Assembly (NCBI RefSeq): GCF_028471905.1
Contig: NZ_CP116902.1
Location: forward strand, 2,020,501 to 2,084,500
Direction: 5' to 3'
From: Aneurinibacillus uraniidurans
GTDB lineage: Bacteria > Bacillota > Bacilli > Aneurinibacillales > Aneurinibacillaceae
Length of the DNA stretch: 64,000 nt
The translations under genes and the position numbers were made by a program. This document shows positions 46,043 through 60,247 of this stretch, piece by piece (the stretch's first letter is position 1; the number at the start of each line of letters is the position of its first letter). The notes under the pieces are model-generated. The model did no database searches. It worked only from the letters and a program-made list of their open reading frames with translations, and was not told the DNA's origin.

Positions 46043-46722
46043 TTAGTTCGATGGAACAGTCATCTTATTATGTTTCAAAGTAGTGTAGATGACGCAAGCG
46101 ATAAGAATTGAAATCAGAACTAGAGAAGATCCCATCGTCCCTAGATCTAGCCCCCCCTTTTGCATGTGACTTTGTAAGCAGGTCTCCGAATGTCGCTCCA
46201 AAAGGGCGAGTTAGGACAAAGGCGATCCAGAATAAGAAGATACGAGAAATTTTGGTATAAAAAGCAGCTAAAACTATGAGCGCCAGTAAGTCCCCGATTA
46301 GCATGGCTCCTCCCGCAAATCCAAGGCCTGAACTATCAGCTAAGAAATCACCTAAAGCTGTACCCAACGTATTAGAGAAGAGGATGGCAACCCAATAAAG
46401 TACTTCAACTTTACGTGTATTAATATAATTGACATTCAATGACCGCTCACTAACGTACCAATAAGCGAATATCACCAACAAGATGCTGACTAATATCAAT
46501 GACCCCTTTGCATATCCTAAGCCCAGACTGCGGTCCATAAAGTCAGACATTGTTGTGCCAGCGGTACTCGTTGTCAGAATAACCGTCCAATAAAGGGAGG
46601 GGTGATACTTTTTCGACATAAGTTGCGATACGAGACTAATCAAAAACAGCCCAAATAAAATAATGGAACTGATGGCGTACCCCACTTTCATAGTCTGTGC
46701 CAATAAGTCACCAGCTGTTAGT
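46043..46722 (-). pseudogene. COG4705 polytopic membrane protein (paralogue 2), truncated and frameshifted
   Basis: The frame aligns with paralogues 1 and 3 and keeps their G-x5-D elements: AGTTMSDFMD, LGTALGDFLA and RPFGATFGDLL. Two defects are seen. The N-terminus is missing: in-frame sequence before MAQTMKVGYA reads LTAGDLL and then meets a stop. Near the 3' end a run of seven G (minus strand, 46151-46157) shifts the frame after HAKGG; removing one G restores LDLGTMGSSLVLISILIA, a last helix, and a stop at 46043-46045. It follows the kinase of the neighbouring TCS on the same strand. Confidence 0.8.
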
Positions 46723-48926: not shown

Positions 48927-50483
48927 TTATTTATTTGCTCCGTTTAAGATACTAAGCGAATTGGTAAGTGCAGATTTGCACTGGCTGGCATCAGGATTTG
49001 TTGAACGAACGGCTGCTAGTACATTGTCAATCGTTCCATCAATTTTGATCCATGTTGTGCTATCGATTTTCCTAAGCTTAGGCTCCGATATGTCCCATTG
49101 ATGTTCCAAATCGTCAGCGCCTTTTTTCGCCGAAGTAAAGTCATTTGTGTTTACAGATTTCAGCATATCATTTTCGATTTTAACAAACCCTGTTAATTGT
49201 CCAGCTAATTTATTTTGTGGAGAATCGATTTGCGATTTTCCGCCTACTGTAGTTTGTGAAGAATTAGTTTGCGATGTTACTTTATTTGCTCCGTTTAAGG
49301 TACTAAGCGAATTGGTAAGCGTAGCTTTGCACTGGCTAGCATCAGGGTTTGCTGAACGAACGGCTGCTAATACATCGTCAATCGTTCCATCGATTTGGGT
49401 CCATGTTGTGCTATCGATTTTTCTAAGCTTAGGTTCTGATATGTCCCATTGATGTTCCAAATTGTCAGCACCTTTTTTCGCCGAAGTAAAGTCATTTGCG
49501 TTTACAGATTTCAGCATATCATTTTCGATTTTAACAAAATCCGTTAACTGTCCAGCTAATGTAGCTTGTGGAGAATCAGTTTGCGATGCGATATTATTGC
49601 TGCACCAAACATAACCGCCTATACCGGTAGCTAAGAAAATACACAGTACCACAATAGTTTGTGTCAAAACATTTTTCTTACTTTCATGTGCTTGGTTTAT
49701 TGCCACTGCTTCATTTTTTGCCGTTGTATCAATTTTTGTAACAGCAAGAAAAATGATGATCGCTAAAATACCTATAAGAAAAATTACACTCGTAACGGTT
49801 GTCCCCAAACCTAACCCGCCATTAATTTTTGGTTGAGATAGGTAATCTCCTAATGATGCTCCGAGTGGACGAGTCAGAATATACGCAATCCAAAACGCTA
49901 ATACTCCATCCAGTTTCAAGAACTTCCATGCCAAAAATACGCAAGCTATTATACTAACGACTGTTATTCCTGTGTTGAGATAACCAAGACCAAGTTGTTC
50001 AGAATATAAATCGCCGACTGCTGTTCCAAGCGCAAATGTGAAAAGAATGGTAAGCCAATAGAAAACTTCTCTTTTTCTTGTATAAATCGAGTGGATCGAA
50101 AGTGTTTTTTCGCTACGATACCAAAAAAGAAACGTTAATCCTAGCAGCACAGAGAAAACTACTGTACTACGCTCAAGAGGTACTCCCATACTGTCTGTTA
50201 AATTATCAGTGACCAGCGTTCCAAATACGCTTATAAGAACAACCGTTAGCCAATAAATGCCTGGAATATATTTCGTTGCTCTGAATTGAAGAAACAATAC
50301 GATGAAAAACGCGATTCCCATAATGATCGTAGTGAAAGTTAAACCAAATCCAAGGCTGAAGTTTAGGAAATCAGCAAATGTTTCACCGACAGTTGTGCAT
50401 AAAACCTTAATGATCCAAAAGAAAATCGTAACTTCTGGTACTTTGCTAAGTAAAATTTTCAATTTGGTCTGGTTGTCTTCCAT
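48927..50483 (-). CDS. COG4705 membrane protein with two C-terminal repeat domains (paralogue 3)
   Basis: A 518-residue protein. Residues 1-255 form the COG4705 membrane domain with the four G-x5-D elements (TVGETFADFL, FGTLVTDNL, LGTAVGDLY, RPLGASLGDYL). A further membrane helix (about 280-300, QTIVVLCIFLATGIGGYVW) leads to about 215 residues that are probably outside. These contain two near-identical helical domains of about 100 residues, each with LAGQLT-FVKIENDMLKSVN, then HQWDISEPKLRKIDSTTW, then DASQCK. The domains are joined by a Ser/Thr/Gln linker. Paralogue 1 lacks this part. The start MEDNQTK follows AAAGGAAG. It is the first gene of a possible unit with a TCS and paralogue 2. Confidence 0.82.
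   Translation of the reverse strand: MEDNQTKLKILLSKVPEVTIFFWIIKVLCTTVGETFADFLNFSLGFGLTFTTIIMGIAFFIVLFLQFRATKYIPGIYWLTVVLISVFGTLVTDNLTDSMGVPLERSTVVFSVLLGLTFLFWYRSEKTLSIHSIYTRKREVFYWLTILFTFALGTAVGDLYSEQLGLGYLNTGITVVSIIACVFLAWKFLKLDGVLAFWIAYILTRPLGASLGDYLSQPKINGGLGLGTTVTSVIFLIGILAIIIFLAVTKIDTTAKNEAVAINQAHESKKNVLTQTIVVLCIFLATGIGGYVWCSNNIASQTDSPQATLAGQLTDFVKIENDMLKSVNANDFTSAKKGADNLEHQWDISEPKLRKIDSTTWTQIDGTIDDVLAAVRSANPDASQCKATLTNSLSTLNGANKVTSQTNSSQTTVGGKSQIDSPQNKLAGQLTGFVKIENDMLKSVNTNDFTSAKKGADDLEHQWDISEPKLRKIDSTTWIKIDGTIDNVLAAVRSTNPDASQCKSALTNSLSILNGANK
48934..49587 (-). repeat. Tandem duplication (period 351 bp) in COG4705 paralogue 3
   Basis: The block starting at 48934 recurs at 49285, 351 bases (117 codons) later, with few changes over about 300 bases. 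Low divergence at the DNA level, including silent positions, suggests a recent duplication or ongoing conversion. Confidence 0.85.
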
Positions 50484-50690
50484 ATATTTCTTCCTTTCTT
50501 TAGCAGCGGTTTCCCACAAATTAATCTTTTGTTTTACCTGATTGTATTAAAACCAAAAGTAAATTTTATTGGACTACAAATTAAATTATATCTGATACTA
50601 TCCCCCTAAAAAATGAGAATACGATGAGAATTAAATGAGATTTATGTAACGTAAATCTGAAAGACACACGTTGTCGATTCTACAAAAAAA

Positions 50691-51981: not shown

Positions 51982-52134
51982 TCTTTATATCCTTTCCCCT
52001 TTTGAGTATCTCTCTTATACGCTTTTTAGCTGCTTTTAATTTTTTTATAAAGATTTATTAACCTATTACCTATACAATGTATTAGTAACCTTTACGTAGT
52101 TATAAACATGAAATCTGGAGGTATAGATTTTACA

Positions 52135-52704
52135 ATGAAAAAACAACTTAAAAAAGCAGTCGTCTGCCTTGGAATCTCTTCACTTTTACCCGCAGCAGCT
52201 TTCTCTGTATGGGCCGATACCATGCCAGCGACAAAAATCCCAGCACAACAACCAGCTCCAAAGGCTGTGATCGTCGCACCTGTTCACCCGGCAACCCCAG
52301 CAGTTGTAGTTGCTAAACCTAAACTTAACACACAACAGCAAAAAGCCCAAGTTTTAAAACTTGCACAATCGCTCAAAGGAACACGCTACCTGCAGGGGGG
52401 ATCTACGCCTAAAGGGTTTGATTCTTCTGGTTATGTTAACTATTTATTCACAAAAAACGGAATAAACATCCCTCGTTCTACTAATTCGCTATTTCGAACA
52501 GGGAAACCTGTCGCAAAAAACGCCTTGATCGCAGGCGATCTCGTCTTCTTTAATACAAATGTCGGCAAAGGTGCAACCGATGTCGGCATCTACCTTGGCA
52601 ACAATACGTTCCTCTCCGTTACAACCAAAAGAGGTGTAGCCGCTTCGAACTTAAAAGATAAATACTGGGCATCCAAATTTGTCGGTGCAAAACGCATCTT
52701 ATAA
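52135..52704 (+). CDS. Secreted NlpC/P60-fold protein lacking the catalytic triad
   Basis: A 189-residue exported protein: a signal peptide (residues 1-27, cleavage probably near VWA-DT), a Pro/Ala/Val-rich linker (about 30-65), then an NlpC/P60 domain (about 70-189). In active enzymes the domain shows GFDCSG, then THVG, then FIH twelve residues later. Here the same positions read GFDSSG (Ser97 for Cys), TDVGIYLG (Asp149 for His) and FLS (Ser161 for His). The fold-keeping residues PRSTNSLF, GDLVFF and GIYLG are retained. I infer a non-catalytic cell-wall-binding or regulatory protein. The start MKKQLKK lies 12 bases after GGAGGT. Confidence 0.85.
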   Translation: MKKQLKKAVVCLGISSLLPAAAFSVWADTMPATKIPAQQPAPKAVIVAPVHPATPAVVVAKPKLNTQQQKAQVLKLAQSLKGTRYLQGGSTPKGFDSSGYVNYLFTKNGINIPRSTNSLFRTGKPVAKNALIAGDLVFFNTNVGKGATDVGIYLGNNTFLSVTTKRGVAASNLKDKYWASKFVGAKRIL

Positions 52705-52734
52705 AAATAACCGGGCATATGCCCGGTTATTTTT
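52703..52734. terminator. Bidirectional terminator between NlpC/P60 and kinase genes
   Basis: A near-perfect palindrome, AAAAATAACCGGGC-ATAT-GCCCGGTTATTTTT, serves both converging genes. The stem core repeats that at 1566-1579. Confidence 0.85.
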
Positions 52735-52748
52735 AGTTCCTCACATCT

Positions 52749-54161
52749 TCAAAGCTGAATTTCAACCATTGTCCCGCAGCCAATTTCACTATTGATTTTA
52801 ATTTCTCCATCGTGTGCCCAAATAATATCACGGGCAATGGCCATGCCAAGTCCGGAACCTTTATGTAATTCTCCTGTGTTAGTCCCACGATAATAACGGT
52901 CAAAAATTCTCTCCAGTTCTTCTTTCTGTATCCCCTTTCCATTATCCTTTATTGTAATGTATGTCCGTTCTTTTTTTTCGATACAGACGACAATTTGGGT
53001 GCTGCTGTCGTTATGGACGATCGCATTATAGATCAGATTATTTATCGCCCTCCGAATAAAAATCTCATCAGCATCTATTTTGATCCGTTCCTGACTACAC
53101 TGAAATTCAATATATCGATTTGAATATTTGGCATCATTCAAAATATCAATGACAATACTTCGTAAAAGAGCTACCATATTAATTGCTTTTTTATGTAACG
53201 TTAATTCTTTATTTTTCAATCTTGTCGTTATGCTCAAATCTTCAACGACTTCCTTTATATAAAGGGATTTATTTTCAATAATTTCTGCGTATTCTCTCAT
53301 TTCTTCTAATGAAAACTGATAGTCCGGGTCTTTCATCATTTCAGCATAACCTTGAATGGAAGCTAACGGTGTTTTGATATCATGGGATATGTTTCCGATC
53401 CATTCTTCTTTCATTTTATCTAGCTTTTTTCGTTCATTTTCATTTACTTTTAGCTGATTGGATAAATAATTCACATTATGAAAAACATCTTTATACATGC
53501 CTTTCGGTTCATAAATGACATCATAGTCTTTGTTTGCTAATCTTCTGATTCCATCTATGAGCATGCTTAATGGCTGCGTCAGTCTTTTGCTGAATAAATA
53601 GCCAATCAATAAAGCAATGAGGCCATCTATTATAATAAAGACCGTACTGCCTACTTTAAACATGTGGAGTATATCCCGATAGTCATATGACAAGACATAT
53701 TTACCGATATAAGGATTTTTGATTCCAATAAAATAACTGTATTTTTTATGATTGATTTCCTTCCCACTCACAAAAACAGTCGTTTCCGCATCAATTTCTT
53801 TATACTTATACATTTGTACAATTTCTAATGGTGTATATTTCTTTTTTGCCCCTGCTGGTAGCCTGTAGCTGTATACTTCCTGGCCATTCTCATCTAAGAT
53901 TTGAATCCATGCGTTGTTTTTTTGCAGCGCATTTTGTCCTTTTTCATTTATTGTCACACGATCAGCAGAAGCTATCACATAATCATCTAAGCTCCTTGTA
54001 AATGCTTCAGCGGATGTTTTATTTGCTTGAAAAATCGGCTCTTTACCTGTAGCCTGGGCTATGAGCAAGGCTAGTATCAGCAGAAAATTTATAAAAACAA
54101 CGAGTATCACTACTAAAACAATGGATAATATATATCGCCCCGTTAACCGCCATTTCATCAA
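52749..54161 (-). CDS. Sensor histidine kinase of the YxdLM-YxeA-like operon
   Basis: A 470-residue kinase: membrane helix 1 at about residues 10-36, an extracytoplasmic sensor of about 135 residues, helix 2 at about 175-195, HAMP (about 196-245), the H-box NISHDIKTPLASIQGY with His near 260, and a HATPase domain with LIYNAIVHND, DNGKGIQKEEL and GSGLGMAI. Unlike BceS/YxdK kinases, which have almost no extracellular part, it has a full sensor domain, so it can sense by itself. It begins directly after the regulator stop and ends the operon. Confidence 0.92.
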   Translation of the reverse strand: MMKWRLTGRYILSIVLVVILVVFINFLLILALLIAQATGKEPIFQANKTSAEAFTRSLDDYVIASADRVTINEKGQNALQKNNAWIQILDENGQEVYSYRLPAGAKKKYTPLEIVQMYKYKEIDAETTVFVSGKEINHKKYSYFIGIKNPYIGKYVLSYDYRDILHMFKVGSTVFIIIDGLIALLIGYLFSKRLTQPLSMLIDGIRRLANKDYDVIYEPKGMYKDVFHNVNYLSNQLKVNENERKKLDKMKEEWIGNISHDIKTPLASIQGYAEMMKDPDYQFSLEEMREYAEIIENKSLYIKEVVEDLSITTRLKNKELTLHKKAINMVALLRSIVIDILNDAKYSNRYIEFQCSQERIKIDADEIFIRRAINNLIYNAIVHNDSSTQIVVCIEKKERTYITIKDNGKGIQKEELERIFDRYYRGTNTGELHKGSGLGMAIARDIIWAHDGEIKINSEIGCGTMVEIQL

Positions 54162-54869
54162 TTATTTATCCTCTACCACAAGCTTATAGCCTAAGCCTTT
54201 TACTGTAATCAAATATTGCGGATTGGAAGGTTGTTCTTCAATCTTCTCCCGTAACCTCCGAATGTGTACCATAATCGTATTATCGAAACCGATAAATTCT
54301 TCGCCCCATACATGATCACAGAGACTTTCTTTACTAATAATTTGATTGGGGTTTTTAAGAAGATGCGCCATTAAGCCAAGTTCTTTTGGCTTTAACTCAA
54401 TGGTTTTTCCGTTCTTTTTCAATTCTGCTCGTTGTTCATATAATTCAAAAGGGCCTGCTTTTAAGGGATGATTTTTGTCATCAACTTGCATATAGTCAGC
54501 CCTGCGCAATTGTGCCTTTACACGATACGCGACTTCCTTTGGACTAAATGGTTTGGTGATATAATCGTCACCGCCAATCGCAAGGCCTAAAATTTTATCA
54601 ATCTCTTCGCCTTTTGCAGATAGGAATAAAATAGGCACCTTCGAAATACTTCTTATTTGTTTACAAACATCATATCCTTCTCCATCCGGCAGCATAATGT
54701 CGAGCAAAACAAGATCTGGCTGTTTTTGTTGAAATTGCGCAAACCCATCTTTTGCAGTTGTCGAAGTATAAATGGTATCGATTCCTTCTTTTGTTAATAC
54801 CGTTTTTAGAATTCGTAAAATATCTTCTTCATCATCGATCAGTAAAACCTTTTTATTTTGTAATGACAT
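54162..54869 (-). CDS. OmpR-family response regulator of the YxdLM-YxeA-like operon
   Basis: A 235-residue regulator with acidic residues DDEED at 12-16, phospho-acceptor Asp57 in LVLLDIMLPDGEG, FLSAKG and ITKPFSPKEVA, then a winged helix with NTIMVHIRRLREK and TVKGLGYKLVVE. The start MSLQNKK is placed 9 bases after AGGAGG. It follows the DUF418 gene by 14 bases on the same strand. The ABC transporter genes upstream in the operon are the likely regulatory context. Confidence 0.92.
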   Translation of the reverse strand: MSLQNKKVLLIDDEEDILRILKTVLTKEGIDTIYTSTTAKDGFAQFQQKQPDLVLLDIMLPDGEGYDVCKQIRSISKVPILFLSAKGEEIDKILGLAIGGDDYITKPFSPKEVAYRVKAQLRRADYMQVDDKNHPLKAGPFELYEQRAELKKNGKTIELKPKELGLMAHLLKNPNQIISKESLCDHVWGEEFIGFDNTIMVHIRRLREKIEEQPSNPQYLITVKGLGYKLVVEDK

Positions 54870-54883
54870 ATATGGCCAGCCTC

Positions 54884-55936
54884 CTAACCGTTTCTCTTTG
54901 TTAGTATACCTCTTCCATATGTCATAAAGCGCCATACTTTCTCTAAAGGTCCCATCTTAAAGAATACAAACCATACATTACTGTAGATGATTTGCAAAGC
55001 AAAGACTAGACAGGAAATGAGGACAACATGGTTAGGTGATACAACTTCAAGACCCATGAATGAGATGATGGCTAATCCGATAAAGCTCTGGGCTACATAA
55101 TTCGTAAACGCCATCTGGCCTACACGTGACACGGGCTTACAGAAGTTTTGGATCTTCTTATTCTCCAGTATGGAAAACAATGTAGTTACGTAAAATAAAA
55201 CCATCGGAATGGTGCTTATAGAAATGATTTGGCTGAGGTTCTCTGCGCTCTTTTCAGATGCTGTCCAAATCCAGAAAGAAAAAACAACAACGGCAGGAAA
55301 TGTTCCAATTTGAATCCATCTAATCTGTTTTTTAAAATCGTTTATCTGCCTGATCCAATCAGCCTTAGCAGCCAGAAAGCCTGCTAAAAGCATCAGGAAG
55401 ATTAACGTGGAATCACTAATAATAAAATTAATTACTCCTGAGAAACTCCCCATCGAAGGAGATGCGAGCTTTGCTATAAGTGCAACCACGTAAATCCCGG
55501 TAATCACTCCAAGCCACTTACTAATTGTATAAATGGTTGCGTGATAAAAAGGGAGAAGCAACAAACCAATCACTGCATAAGCAGGCAAGATCGTCCCCCA
55601 GAAAAATAAAACATGGATGATTCCCAACAAGAGAAGAGCCAGTAGGCGTCTTGTGAAGCGCCACCTTGGCTTATCGCCCCAGTTCTCCGCACGTGAGGCG
55701 AAGATATAAAAGCCCACGCCAAACAAAAAGGAGAAAATCGAAAAGAACTTTTTTTCCACGAAAATGGAGATCAGTGTTCGAATGATTCCATTCACTCCAC
55801 TATAGTCCGGCATGGGTCCACCTTCCACCAAAACTTTGTATCCTGCTACATTGATAAACAATATACCGAATAGCGCAAGGCCACGAATAATATCTAATGA
55901 GACAATTCTTTCTTTCTGTGATATGGATGGGTTCAC
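54884..55936 (-). CDS. DUF418 membrane protein
   Basis: A 350-residue protein with about ten membrane helices. The N-terminus RIVSLDIIRGLALFGILFIN (about residues 10-29), then KKFFSIFSFLFGVGFYIF, and the C-terminal FTNYVAQSFIG with GPLEKVWRFMTYG are the marks of the DUF418/YeiB family, distant relatives of membrane acyltransferases. The function is not established. The start is a GTG behind GGGGGG. It sits between yxeA and the TCS, so it belongs to the same unit. Confidence 0.88.
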   Translation of the reverse strand: MNPSISQKERIVSLDIIRGLALFGILFINVAGYKVLVEGGPMPDYSGVNGIIRTLISIFVEKKFFSIFSFLFGVGFYIFASRAENWGDKPRWRFTRRLLALLLLGIIHVLFFWGTILPAYAVIGLLLLPFYHATIYTISKWLGVITGIYVVALIAKLASPSMGSFSGVINFIISDSTLIFLMLLAGFLAAKADWIRQINDFKKQIRWIQIGTFPAVVVFSFWIWTASEKSAENLSQIISISTIPMVLFYVTTLFSILENKKIQNFCKPVSRVGQMAFTNYVAQSFIGLAIISFMGLEVVSPNHVVLISCLVFALQIIYSNVWFVFFKMGPLEKVWRFMTYGRGILTKRNG

Positions 55937-55963
55937 TCTATGCCCCCCTTTCTATACATCAAT

Positions 55964-56323
55964 TCATTTTAATTTTTCTTTTGCTTTTCCAGGAATGTCT
56001 TCTTTTTTCACTTCTTGATACGAGGTTACTTTCTGTTCTTCTTTCACAAACAGATTGATATACGCCTCTTTGCGAAGCGGTTTCGTGCTTGTAAAGATAA
56101 GCATCTTTTCTTTCCCCTCTTGATCAAAGGCAGGCAACGTGTATTCATACGTGACAAATTTTTCTCCGCTCGTTAATTTGTCTTCTATTTTCTTTCCATT
56201 CCCCGTAATCTGCACATAATAATTGTCTGTACCGAAGCGGTTTACATTCACATTTTGCATAAAAATTAACGATCCAACGATCAAAGCAGCGATTGCCGCT
56301 AAAGATATCATCCATTTTTTCAT
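55964..56323 (-). CDS. yxeA: YxeA-family exported protein
   Basis: A 119-residue protein with an N-terminal membrane anchor or signal (about residues 5-22), then a small beta-rich domain with FGTDNYYVQITGNGKKIE and EYTLPAFDQEGKEK, and a charged Lys-rich end. This matches the YxeA/DUF1093 family. In Bacillus subtilis yxeA follows yxdJKLM, a module linked to cationic-peptide stress; here too it directly follows the transporter genes. Its role is unknown. Confidence 0.87.
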   Translation of the reverse strand: MKKWMISLAAIAALIVGSLIFMQNVNVNRFGTDNYYVQITGNGKKIEDKLTSGEKFVTYEYTLPAFDQEGKEKMLIFTSTKPLRKEAYINLFVKEEQKVTSYQEVKKEDIPGKAKEKLK

Positions 56324-56345
56324 CGTTCTTCCCCTTCATTCCATT

Positions 56346-58277
56346 TTATTTTGTCTTTGTCACGATCTTGTAGTACGCATTGACAGTTAAGAAGTAATAC
56401 ACGATATACATACATGTGTATACGCCCATACATATACTGATGGGAATAACCAGGCTAGTTTGTAAAAGTCTTGATAAAGCCGTTAACGCCACCATACAAT
56501 GAGCGATTCCTACAAGCAAAGGCAAGGCAAAAATGAATAACACTTGTTTGGCAATGCTGTTTCGTAACTCCTTCTTATTCACGCCAATTTTGTGCAAAAT
56601 TTCATAGCGTCCCTTGTCTGCATTCGCCTCGGTTACTTGTTTAAAGTAAATAATGCTTCCTGTTGCCGCAAGGAATACGAGCCCTAAAAAACCGCCCATG
56701 AAAATCAGTAAGCCTGTTGTTTCTAAGCCAGCCGCGTAATCTGCATAGAAGCTTGAGAAACGTGCTTGCTCCGGCATAATGGCTTGAATGTCTTTTGTTA
56801 ATGACTTTGCATCCTCTTCTTTGGTAATCTTGTACATCTCCATATTCACAGGAGTGATTTCGTTTTTTAATTTTACAAACAGTTCATCACTAACTACGAG
56901 CATCGCACCCGCTGTATACAGATTGAGTACCGTATAGGTTTTCAAATGCGTAAATAAAATGTTCTCCTTATGACCGTTTACCTGTAAAGAAATCGTAGAA
57001 CCGACATAGTTAGGTGACATTCCCTTCATGTATTGGGGGTCTAACATCGCTGCTTCGTTTGCTTTTAACGAAAGGACATCGTTCCTTTCTTGTGCTTTTG
57101 CCAGCTTGTTAAAATCACGGTTGGCAATCACGGTATACGCCATCTCATCGCTGGAGAACTTACTATTTAAGCTGGATACGTCTGCATCGATTTGTAGTGT
57201 AGAAATTGCTTCATGATAAACAATGTCATGAGTGTTATGCTTTGAAATCAAATCTTTAGCTTGATTGGCTATATGTTTGTCTATGGCAATAAACATCATG
57301 CTGTTTGGGTCAGCGATTTCTACATTGTTTCTAGTGTTGTAATAGATACTGTACGCGGTTCCAACAGCTATTAATGTTGTCGCACTCAGTACAGCGATGA
57401 CGGTTAGCGTACGGGCATTTCCTTTGATACGGTATAGCAGTTGGGATATGCCGATTACGTTAATGCCATTCCAGTACTGCTTCTTGTTGTTTCTTACCAT
57501 CTTTAATACATAAACCGTTACGGTAGTAAACAAGAAATACGTACCGAGTATAACGGAACTTAAGATAACAAGCGGCGCGATCATAAACCCCAGCTTTCTC
57601 CATGCAGCTGAGTCCAACAAGTTTTGTAGGGCAAGCCAATAACCAATGCCGATCAATACAACCGATAATAAAGCCATGATAAAAGATGCCTTTGGTTCCC
57701 GCTCCCCTTCTTTATCCGCCTGGAATAGTTCAATCAATTTAAAACGGTAAATTAAGCGATATCCCTGAAACGATGTAATCAGCGTAATAACCGTGAACAC
57801 AACAATGGTGTTCATGATCGCTTCGGGTGAAATGGTGAAAGCAGCAATGGCATCATAGCCCATAACCATCATTAAAACTTCTACAAAAAACTTGGATAAT
57901 ACAGAACCGAGCAGAATGCCGACCACGAGAGCTAACGTTCCCATTATGAAGTTCTCATAAAAAAGCATGCGACCAATTTGCTTCTTACGTACACCGAGCA
58001 ACGAGTAAAGGCCAACTTCTTTTTTGCGTTTCCGTGTAAAGAACGAGTTAGAATACCAAATAAAAATCGTTACGAAGATAACCAGAACGACAGCCGCGCT
58101 GCTAAATACCGAACTGATTTTTGGCGACGCGTTAGAAGTCGCTTGAATCGTTTGATCATACTTTAATGACACAAATGTAAAGTAAATCACAATGCTGAAT
58201 ATCATCGAAGCAAAATAAAGAAAGTAATTCGTCATGTTTTTCTGTATGTTTTTTCTGGCAATACTAAACAATGTCAT
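56346..58277 (-). CDS. yxdM: FtsX-type ABC permease (BceB/YxdM-like)
   Basis: A 643-residue permease with the ten-helix BceB/YxdM layout: helix 1 near residue 20, the FtsX core KKEVGLYSLLGVRKKQIGRM (about 78-97), further helices to about 310, a large extracellular loop of about 200 residues (about 325-530), and three C-terminal helices with GRYEILHKIGVNKKEL. Such permeases work in defence against cell-wall-active peptides such as bacitracin or nisin. The start MTLFSIA lies 8 bases after GGAGGT and overlaps the ATPase gene by 14 bases. Confidence 0.9.
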   Translation of the reverse strand: MTLFSIARKNIQKNMTNYFLYFASMIFSIVIYFTFVSLKYDQTIQATSNASPKISSVFSSAAVVLVIFVTIFIWYSNSFFTRKRKKEVGLYSLLGVRKKQIGRMLFYENFIMGTLALVVGILLGSVLSKFFVEVLMMVMGYDAIAAFTISPEAIMNTIVVFTVITLITSFQGYRLIYRFKLIELFQADKEGEREPKASFIMALLSVVLIGIGYWLALQNLLDSAAWRKLGFMIAPLVILSSVILGTYFLFTTVTVYVLKMVRNNKKQYWNGINVIGISQLLYRIKGNARTLTVIAVLSATTLIAVGTAYSIYYNTRNNVEIADPNSMMFIAIDKHIANQAKDLISKHNTHDIVYHEAISTLQIDADVSSLNSKFSSDEMAYTVIANRDFNKLAKAQERNDVLSLKANEAAMLDPQYMKGMSPNYVGSTISLQVNGHKENILFTHLKTYTVLNLYTAGAMLVVSDELFVKLKNEITPVNMEMYKITKEEDAKSLTKDIQAIMPEQARFSSFYADYAAGLETTGLLIFMGGFLGLVFLAATGSIIYFKQVTEANADKGRYEILHKIGVNKKELRNSIAKQVLFIFALPLLVGIAHCMVALTALSRLLQTSLVIPISICMGVYTCMYIVYYFLTVNAYYKIVTKTK

Positions 58278-59031
58278 GCTCTTCACCTCCAAGCAAGGCA
58301 AGCGTATTTAATATCTTTTGGAAAAACTCTTTGCGTGATTGCTGGCCTTTATGAAGTTCCGTAAAGAGTCCGCCGTCTTTAATGAATAATACTCGCTTAC
58401 AGAAGCTTGCCGCATATGCGTCGTGAGTGACCATCATAATGGTTGCTGTATTCTTTTCGTTTAATGTGCGTAAGCTTTCAAGCAAACTTGTAGCAGACTT
58501 TGAATCGAGTGCACCTGTCGGCTCGTCCGCCAGGATTAGGCTTGGGTTGGCAACGATCGCACGGGATGCGGCTGTTCGCTGCTTTTGTCCCCCGGATATA
58601 TGGTACGGATATTTATCTAAGATCTCCCGAATTCCAAATGTATCCGCAATTTCATTGACGCGTTTTTCGATTTCGTTCGGCGGCACTTTTGATAAGGCAA
58701 GCGGAAGCAAAATGTTTTCTTTCACGGTTAACGTATCAAGTAAGTTATAATCTTGGAAAATAAAGCCGAGCTTATTGCGGCGAAAGTCTGATAGTTGTTC
58801 TTCCTTCATTTTGACAATATCCTGACCATCGATGATGATGTCACCTGATGACGGTGTATCAATTGTCGATAAAATATTCAACAGTGTTGATTTACCAGCA
58901 CCAGATGGCCCCATTATCCCAACAAATTCACCTTCTTGAATTTCTAAGTTAATATCCTCCAGCGCTTTATACAGATTTCCTTTAGTCCCAAATACTTTTT
59001 GTACATGTATCGCTTGTAAAATTGTTTTCAT
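58264..59031 (-). CDS. yxdL: ABC transporter ATPase (BceA/YxdL-like)
   Basis: A 255-residue ATPase with GPSGAGKSTLLNIL (Walker A, about residues 40-53), the Q-loop FQDYNLLD, the signature ISGGQKQRT, SLILADEPTGALD (Walker B) and the H-loop MMVTHDAYAA. This is the MacB/BceA type. It is the first gene of the operon ATPase-permease-YxeA-DUF418-regulator-kinase. The C-terminus extends slightly beyond the core, as in BceA. Confidence 0.92.
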   Translation of the reverse strand: MKTILQAIHVQKVFGTKGNLYKALEDINLEIQEGEFVGIMGPSGAGKSTLLNILSTIDTPSSGDIIIDGQDIVKMKEEQLSDFRRNKLGFIFQDYNLLDTLTVKENILLPLALSKVPPNEIEKRVNEIADTFGIREILDKYPYHISGGQKQRTAASRAIVANPSLILADEPTGALDSKSATSLLESLRTLNEKNTATIMMVTHDAYAASFCKRVLFIKDGGLFTELHKGQQSRKEFFQKILNTLALLGGEEHDIV

Positions 59032-59215: not shown

Positions 59216-60241
59216 TCAGTTTTTTGTACTGTTACTTGTTTCAACCTTTCCTTTTTCTGTAACGATTGGATCTAGCAGATCCCCGCTATCTTCGACTCCC
59301 TCCTTCGTGTAATACTCATAGCTAATTCCCCCTTCCTGATCGATCACTTCAGGGATATAATACCAGTTTCCCATCCCAAAGTTTTGGGCAGCTACCCGCT
59401 TATCATGTTCATCATATTCTAAAACTGTTGGATCAGCCGGAAGCCAGCCGTACCCTGGCAAATAAAATTCAACCCACATATGGGCATAGTCTTCCTCTGT
59501 TAAATCTACATTTTTTTCATTCTTATCAAGGGCATATCCGGCCACTGTACGTGCTGGAATATTTTCTGCCCGTAATAAAGCTACCATGAGCCGAGAAAAA
59601 TCTTCACACACACCGGAACGTCTTTGCAGTGCTTGAACCGCAGTACCCCATGCGTTTTTTTCCGTATAGTCCATATACGTATTCGTAAAATCAAAAATTT
59701 TCTTTGCTTTTACGTATGGATTGGTTTCTCCTTTTACAATCTCTTTTGCCTTTTTTACGATTAATGGGTGATTGCTTTCGATTTGAGGGCTTGGCACTAC
59801 GTATCGTTTTACTTCTGGGGGATATGCGACTGTGCTCGCTACTTGTTTTGGGGAGATATTATACGTAACAAGAGAGGACTTTACTTTCGCCACAGCTGTA
59901 TACGTTTTATCACTTGTTATGTTTTCATTCTCGATATTTTCAGAGATCGTATAAAAGAAATTTTTCTCGCTATCTGAACTGATCCCTACCTGCTTGGTTG
60001 CACCTGCATAATAATAAGGATTCGCATATGGGTGTTCTGCCCCATTTATGAGACTTCCCTTGATTGTATAGCTGCTTAGATTCGCCAGCTGTGATTTAGG
60101 AACGGTAATCGTAGCTTGAACCACAATATCGCGTGAATTTGTATAACTGACTCCCTGACTCGCCCAGACTGTACCAGGACTTAGTATGAGACACCAAGCA
60201 AGTACTGCGACAGATAAACTTCGTAACAACCGATTTAGCAT
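59216..60241 (-). CDS. Secreted transglutaminase-like protein
   Basis: A 341-residue exported protein: signal peptide with AVLAWCLILSPGTVWA (cleavage after about residue 27), an N-terminal domain of about 130 residues, then a transglutaminase-core domain (about 165-275). The catalytic set is visible: Cys in RRSGVCEDFSRL, His in YAHMWVEFYLPGYGW, and Asp in LPADPT. Such proteins in Bacillales act as cysteine proteases, isopeptide-forming enzymes or peptidoglycan-related hydrolases outside the cell; which applies is unknown. Of two close ATGs the second (60241) has the right spacing to GGAGGA. Confidence 0.88.
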   Translation of the reverse strand: MLNRLLRSLSVAVLAWCLILSPGTVWASQGVSYTNSRDIVVQATITVPKSQLANLSSYTIKGSLINGAEHPYANPYYYAGATKQVGISSDSEKNFFYTISENIENENITSDKTYTAVAKVKSSLVTYNISPKQVASTVAYPPEVKRYVVPSPQIESNHPLIVKKAKEIVKGETNPYVKAKKIFDFTNTYMDYTEKNAWGTAVQALQRRSGVCEDFSRLMVALLRAENIPARTVAGYALDKNEKNVDLTEEDYAHMWVEFYLPGYGWLPADPTVLEYDEHDKRVAAQNFGMGNWYYIPEVIDQEGGISYEYYTKEGVEDSGDLLDPIVTEKGKVETSNSTKN

Positions 60242-60247
60242 ACACAT

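Follow-up and report, generated by a model that had tools for sequence, protein, structure and literature searches.

Cell-wall cutting is essential for growth. The architectures of the D,L-endopeptidases LytE and CwlO of Bacillus subtilis include LysM repeats and a coiled coil, and MepS (Spr) of Escherichia coli is an active lipoprotein endopeptidase. A Cys-His-His triad is given for MepS in the part of the source available (PMC10318531), and the accessible text of another source attributes the control of cell-wall cutting to WalRK, IseA and CwlO turnover (PMC7299342). Non-catalytic NlpC/P60 proteins are already known as well: RipD, with Ala83-Ser132-Glu144 at the corresponding sites, is reported to bind peptidoglycan in the excerpt available (PMC12067865), and, as far as the excerpted sources go, it illustrates that an NlpC/P60 domain can become a peptidoglycan binder (PMC12067865, PMC6628586). 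The protein described here belongs among these non-catalytic proteins. It is encoded at 52135..52704 (+) of a 64,000-nucleotide stretch of the Aneurinibacillus uraniidurans genome (contig NZ_CP116902.1, positions 2,020,501 to 2,084,500), the whole of which we call the window; it has lost the catalytic Cys and His of the family, and the same loss is present in both orthologues found.

The 189-residue window protein is a member of the PF00877 fold family, the full Pfam NLPC_P60 profile being matched by residues 82-187 (52378..52695, +) with an E-value of 5.4e-26 and 91.1 bits against a curated cut-off of 23. A preliminary description of this DNA had placed Ser97, Asp149 and Ser161 at the three sites of an NlpC/P60 domain, an assignment borne out by alignment to relatives, and had stated that all three catalytic residues are replaced. 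Two of them are indeed lost, namely the Cys, which has given way to Ser97 (codon TCT, 52423..52425, +), and the His, now Asp149 (codon GAT, 52579..52581, +). The third replacement does not stand as a loss: Ser161 (codon TCC, 52615..52617, +) is an ordinary variant, because Ser occupies the third site in 25 of the 112 distinct domains that retain both Cys and His; the remainder have His (67), Asn (9), Gln (7), Asp (3) or Ala (1) there. Judged by the residues of an active C40 peptidase, the window protein lacks the Cys and the His and has, in Ser161, an admissible third residue. The fold-defining segments are intact, as had also been proposed, in that 29 of the 33 columns conserved at 85% or more in 95 Cys/His domains are kept; the mismatches are P84R, C97S, H149D and Y182F, and the probability that both catalytic columns fall among four mismatches in 33 by chance is about 0.011 (hypergeometric, calculated post hoc). 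Asp96 and Ser98, which flank the lost Cys, are retained in 128 of 128 domains, comprising 95 Cys/His domains, 30 Ala-Phe/Tyr domains of a wider pseudoenzyme set described below and the three of the window clade, that is, the window protein and its two orthologues.

An AlphaFold2 model built from 48 aligned sequences has mean predicted local distance difference test (pLDDT) values, in blocks of ten residues, of 94-98 from residue 71 on and of 50-71 for the first 60 residues, with a predicted template modelling score of 0.67. Foldseek returned MepS (7v6s, E-value 1.6e-14) as the first match of the model, and VIA-align gave Z-scores of 22.9 to an autolysin domain of Clostridioides (7cfl), 21.2 to LytE from its complex with IseA (8i2e), 20.5 to CwlO (8wt3) and, for the non-catalytic RipD (4jxb), 19.0 with a root-mean-square deviation of 1.4 over 115 residues. 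Among the 50 VIA entries listed, the name IseA occurs solely for the protein bound to LytE in 8i2e, which rules nothing out. As modelled, the window protein retains an intact NlpC/P60 fold; a shared fold by itself says nothing on function.

Proteins with at least 75% identity are encoded by three of 11 genomes of the family, namely that of the window, G005 (89%) and G007 (75%), the last being A. tyrosinisolvens, with a protein identical to that of A. tyrosinisolvens LL-002; two further family genomes have matches at 48% identity only. None of the three genes contains an internal stop. The residues at the three sites are Ser/Asp/Ser in the window protein and in G005 and Ala/Thr/Ser in G007, and the most similar Cys/His proteins reach 48% identity to the window protein among the matches listed and 51% in the 48-row alignment. 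The nearest homologues found are a Ser/Asp/Ser and an Ala/Thr/Ser protein rather than close relatives with Cys-His-His, by which the preliminary description would have recognized a recent dead copy. For the domain, the ratio of nonsynonymous to synonymous substitution rates (dN/dS) obtained with NG86 is 0.112 between the window genome and G005, 0.139 between the window genome and G007 and 0.131 between G005 and G007, and YN00 gives 0.146 and 0.173 for two of the three pairs; the N-terminal part, including the signal, has values of 0.41-0.46 (NG86) and 0.63-0.93 (YN00). Four pairs of Cys/His paralogues from the window genome and G005 have NG86 values of 0.135, 0.116, 0.069 and 0.132. The NlpC/P60 domain is under purifying selection and is constrained like the intact paralogues.

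WalR is a repressor of iseA and an activator of lytE and cwlO, according to the portion of the source at hand (PMC7299342). Exact TGTWAH-N5-TGTWAH boxes were sought within 300 nt upstream of the genes, with the first Met of each open frame assumed, at some risk of error, to be the start; 12 of 130 rows, every one of them Cys/His, were omitted for lack of upstream DNA, and the Ser-His-Ser and Thr-Asn-His rows were not reported. Such boxes precede 26 of 83 Cys/His genes (shuffled mean 0.53) and three of 30 Ala-Phe/Tyr genes (0.15). One-mismatch boxes are present in G007 and some others, from which we conclude nothing. The three boxed pseudoenzyme genes (L013, L048 and L081), all of the Ala-Phe-Gly kind, are orthologues from three species that belong to a single genus and stand far from the window protein, and their boxes, which begin at -40 and, in addition, at -51 (exact in two of the three), span -51 to -24 from the start codon. 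The boxes of 21 of the 26 boxed Cys/His genes lie farther away, at -76 to -147. If such near boxes repress, cells would produce these three pseudoenzymes at times of high endopeptidase activity, in the manner of IseA, a hint that concerns distant relatives of the window protein only.

How the window protein works has to be judged from these comparisons, and we think it on balance probable that it is a conserved, non-catalytic binder of stem peptides with a shielding or regulating effect, RipD-like in its working. With Cys and His gone, the cysteine chemistry of the family is impossible; the intact fold would hold the peptidoglycan stem peptide in the former groove, and the bound protein could then shield or mark the bond that is cut by the working D,L-endopeptidases of the cell, or act as a brake. 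The fold is kept and the cutting residues are lost, also in close relatives, which makes it likely that the protein holds wall peptides or tunes the cutters. We infer the binding and its effect; the loss of residues, the fold, the orthologues, the selection and the stand-alone gene are what we observed. The changed role anticipated in the preliminary description, as opposed to simple decay, is supported by the finding that both orthologues are dead as well and that the domain is under purifying selection. A copy that was inactivated recently and is now being lost would fit the patchy presence among the family genomes, but we reject it as very improbable: both orthologues found are dead, one of them with different residues at two sites, the domain is constrained, a block upstream of the gene is conserved and no stops occur in the three genes. 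Even less credence can be given to a new enzymatic chemistry with Ser97, Asp149 and Ser161, which had been suggested earlier and to which the retention of all three residues in the 89%-identical G005 protein and the Ser that replaces Cys in two Ser-Phe-Ala proteins (L159 and L169) might be taken to point; in the 75%-identical orthologue positions 97 and 149 are Ala and Thr, the general base of the family is gone and Ser161 is common in ordinary members.

Regulation by protein contact, in which the protein would bind an active D,L-endopeptidase or sequester an IseA-like inhibitor that binds in the groove, and would in that way alter how active the working enzymes are, requires no binding of peptidoglycan and is the main alternative, though a rather unlikely one. 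The near-start WalR-type boxes of the three Ala-Phe-Gly genes occupy a repressor-like place, as would suit an inhibitor, but that interpretation of their place is a guess, the boxed species are distant, and exact boxes are lacking in 27 of 30 Ala-Phe/Tyr genes as in the whole window clade. That the fold serves as the scaffold of a structural or surface protein with no peptide-binding role seems to us quite improbable: it would be in keeping with the failure to find neighbours or motifs that tie the gene to a pathway, but the columns conserved across the family are kept except for the catalytic pair, and a pseudoenzyme with LysM exists in another genus. Several observations weigh against the stem-peptide binder that we favour. 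With a protein of at least 75% identity in only three of 11 family genomes, it is not needed across the family. Neither the orthologue contexts nor the 36 loci compared contain conserved gene neighbours that point to a pathway, and no exact WalR box occurs within 300 nt upstream of the three window-clade orthologues (shuffled mean 0.02), so nothing there ties the window protein to the known control of endopeptidases. Moreover, L170, a pseudoenzyme of the wider set, has Gly at the position of Ser98, and the retention of Asp96 and Ser98 may be explained by the fold rather than by binding.

The window protein is not alone in Bacilli. A profile of four sequences (the window protein, G005, G007 and G048) scored 212-372 bits with six proteins, four of which were its own rows, and the rest stayed at or below 150 bits among the matches listed. 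The two new proteins are Ala-Phe-Gly pseudoenzymes from the genus of G048; other pseudoenzymes scored at most 143 bits and were mixed with Cys/His proteins, and this profile therefore cannot separate the dead kind from the intact one. A second profile, made of nine Ala-Phe/Tyr rows and run against 397 genomes sampled from one order, had matches with E-values of 1e-42 or lower in 69 of them. All 30 loci returned directly by that search are pseudoenzymes (eight of these repeat domains already read), and 40 further regions that were read yielded 24 pseudoenzymes and 16 Cys/His proteins. The genomes with a verified pseudoenzyme thus number at least 47 of 397 (30 plus 17), from 12 family codes; this is a floor, since the regions read did not cover every match, one uncovered match being in G1087. 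After fragments with more than 25 gaps in 120 columns had been dropped (four in the quick-tree set and seven in the 30-locus set), there were 171 distinct domains, a biased sample because it stems from pseudoenzyme-seeded searches; 112 have Cys and His and 59 do not have both, Ser-His-Ser keeping the His. The 59 comprise Ala-Phe-Gly (29), Ala-Phe-Ala (17), Val-Val-Tyr (3), Ser-Asp-Ser (2) and Ser-Phe-Ala (2), together with single instances of Ala-Phe-Ser, Ala-Tyr-Gly, Ala-Ile-Gly, Ala-Thr-Ser, Ser-His-Ser and Thr-Asn-His. Proteins of the Val-Val-Tyr kind have a LysM domain and a signal-like start (L192:501-1667 in G914; also L171, L178 and L186), and the Thr-Asn-His domain is the second of two NlpC/P60 domains in one protein of G868 (L098:1129-1875, minus strand), the first being Cys-His-His. 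An Ala-Phe-Gly pseudoenzyme is carried by the Priestia megaterium plasmid pFDU301A (L150); a second plasmid match, from Sporosarcina (L151), keeps Cys and His. With regard to carriage of the window protein by phages, 54 phage records gave matches, each of which covered no more than 80% of its length and stayed below 60% identity.

An NCBIfam scan of nine Ala-Phe members listed ten families, none specific to the set, and for the one member with scores shown no family reached its cut-off; paper listings from an open-licence library brought up no account of such a non-catalytic family in Bacillota. The broadest reading, that an old and widespread family of secreted pseudoenzymes exists in Bacilli, with the window protein as a diverged member, and that these proteins act as peptide- or enzyme-binding brakes on D,L-endopeptidases, some of them repressed by WalR and so regulated opposite to the active enzymes, strikes us as doubtful. 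The wider dead set is a more interesting outcome than the window protein itself: if it is truly conserved in Bacilli, the control of cell-wall cutting would gain a non-enzymatic level. Domain-based annotation would presumably label such proteins peptidases, and NlpC/P60 genes should not be counted as enzymes without a check for Cys and His.

Whether the window clade and the Ala-Phe set share an origin was approached with trees in which the three sites were masked, leaving 117 columns. The first constrained test omitted 14 distant or long-branched rows; the second and third omitted the Cys/His rows of 28 named loci and were thinned of similar rows, to 75 and 88 rows in all, respectively. In these two, the Ala-Phe set forms one side of a branch labelled 95/88 (19 rows) and 96/90 (27 rows), as does the window trio (100/100 and 100/98). 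Free trees place the trio among Cys/His rows, in the third next to a Cys-His-His row on a branch that is starred (99/84), and two changes are forced by starred branches of that tree. When the two were constrained together, the approximately unbiased (AU) test gave p values of 0.464, 0.576 and 0.735, and the joined tree lay 0.3 log units lower than the free tree in the first test and 6.3 and 15.1 higher in the second and third. On these alignments a common origin of the window clade and the Ala-Phe set is neither shown nor rejected. By residues, the window protein, with Ser and Asp, falls outside the Ala-Phe-Gly/Ala clade as defined by Ala plus Phe or Tyr; the Ala-Tyr-Gly row itself lies outside the Ala-Phe clade in a quick tree. 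A sister position of the Ser-His-Ser domain of G009 to the window trio was not rejected (AU p value 0.38), its tree lying 3.8 log units lower. G009, a genome of the same family, has a tandem NlpC/P60 pair (L014 / L194:1508-2116 and 728-1333, both on the minus strand), one Cys-His-Ser and its neighbour Ser-His-Ser. The Ser-His-Ser member, L014, pairs with its tandem Cys/His neighbour in the quick tree (Shimodaira-Hasegawa-like approximate likelihood-ratio test, 96), so that the Cys was apparently lost separately there.

The gene at 52135..52704 (+) is a stand-alone coding sequence, identified by its open reading frame (ORF), the PF00877 match and a shared N-terminus. The mechanically called ORF begins 27 bases before the ATG at 52135; the MKKQLKKA N-terminus, which the protein has in common with two orthologues, favours 52135 as the start, and the stop codon ends at 52704. 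A GGAGG resembling a ribosome-binding site, read from the sequence, lies 13 nt 5' of the ATG (52117..52121, +). Residues 1-27 (52135..52215, +) look by eye like a signal peptide, from which we take the protein to be probably secreted, and are followed by a Pro/Ala-rich linker at residues 28-65 (52216..52329, +), fast evolving by the N-terminal dN/dS and of low model confidence. The gene appears to end in a Rho-independent terminator-like hairpin at the stop codon (52702..52735, +; -22.3 kcal/mol, z -6.35 versus shuffles), which a simple scan did not list. Upstream, alignment of three 351-bp orthologue stretches delineates a block of about 70 bp (52030..52098, +), a candidate promoter or regulatory region that is largely conserved in the three orthologues despite differing flanking genes in G007; a promoter scan returned a single match, at chance level. 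Among the eight NlpC/P60 domains of the window genome, the other seven genes found keep Cys and His. A scan of genome contigs with one query, by a pattern method sensitive to close relatives only, returned one locus.

The upstream neighbour is a divergent Wzy_C (O-antigen ligase) gene and the next gene downstream encodes a histidine kinase on the opposite strand. The flanks in the window are partly common to G005 and are not found at that place in G007 or G048; neighbours that recur among the 36 loci do so mostly inside close groups. The histidine kinase belongs to a block on the minus strand (52749-59031) with a response regulator, DUF418, DUF1093, an FtsX-like permease and an ABC ATPase, the last two presumably resembling a Bce-type module. 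This block is absent from the same place in G005, where a homologue of the transglutaminase-like gene at 59216-60247 of the window lies directly 3' of the NlpC/P60 gene. Farther upstream, the DUF347 protein encoded at 48927-50519 (minus strand) has its C-terminal part doubled (351-bp repeat, 1.9 copies, 91% matches), and one ORF of G007 matches both this ORF and that at 46068-46703.

Compared with described systems, the window protein has the domain and fold of LytE and CwlO, with 36% (8i2e) and 33% (8wt3) identity, but D,L-endopeptidases of that type are active with Cys and His, and the window protein is without LysM repeats or a coiled coil. MepS is its first sequence match among solved structures. 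Like the window protein, the Ala-Phe-Gly/Ala pseudoenzymes are mostly small (most open frames have 157-204 residues), start with a signal-like segment by eye and have lost Cys and His while conserving the rest; they differ in that 49 of 54 carry Ala in place of the Cys and 49 of 54 carry Phe in place of the His, where the window protein has Ser and Asp. RipD of Mycobacterium tuberculosis (Rv1566c; NF033743, NlpC_inact_RipD) likewise has Cys and His replaced and the fold kept. It has Ala-Ser-Glu, as given in the available part of its source (PMC12067865), in place of Ser/Asp/Ser, and a C-terminal pentapeptide repeat as far as the excerpt describes it, whereas the window protein ends with the domain, two residues past the profile match. 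With 53.9 bits against a cut-off of 215, the window protein is not a member of the RipD family, and its loss of the catalytic pair was probably independent of that in RipD, because the sequences closest to it are NlpC/P60 proteins of Bacillota.
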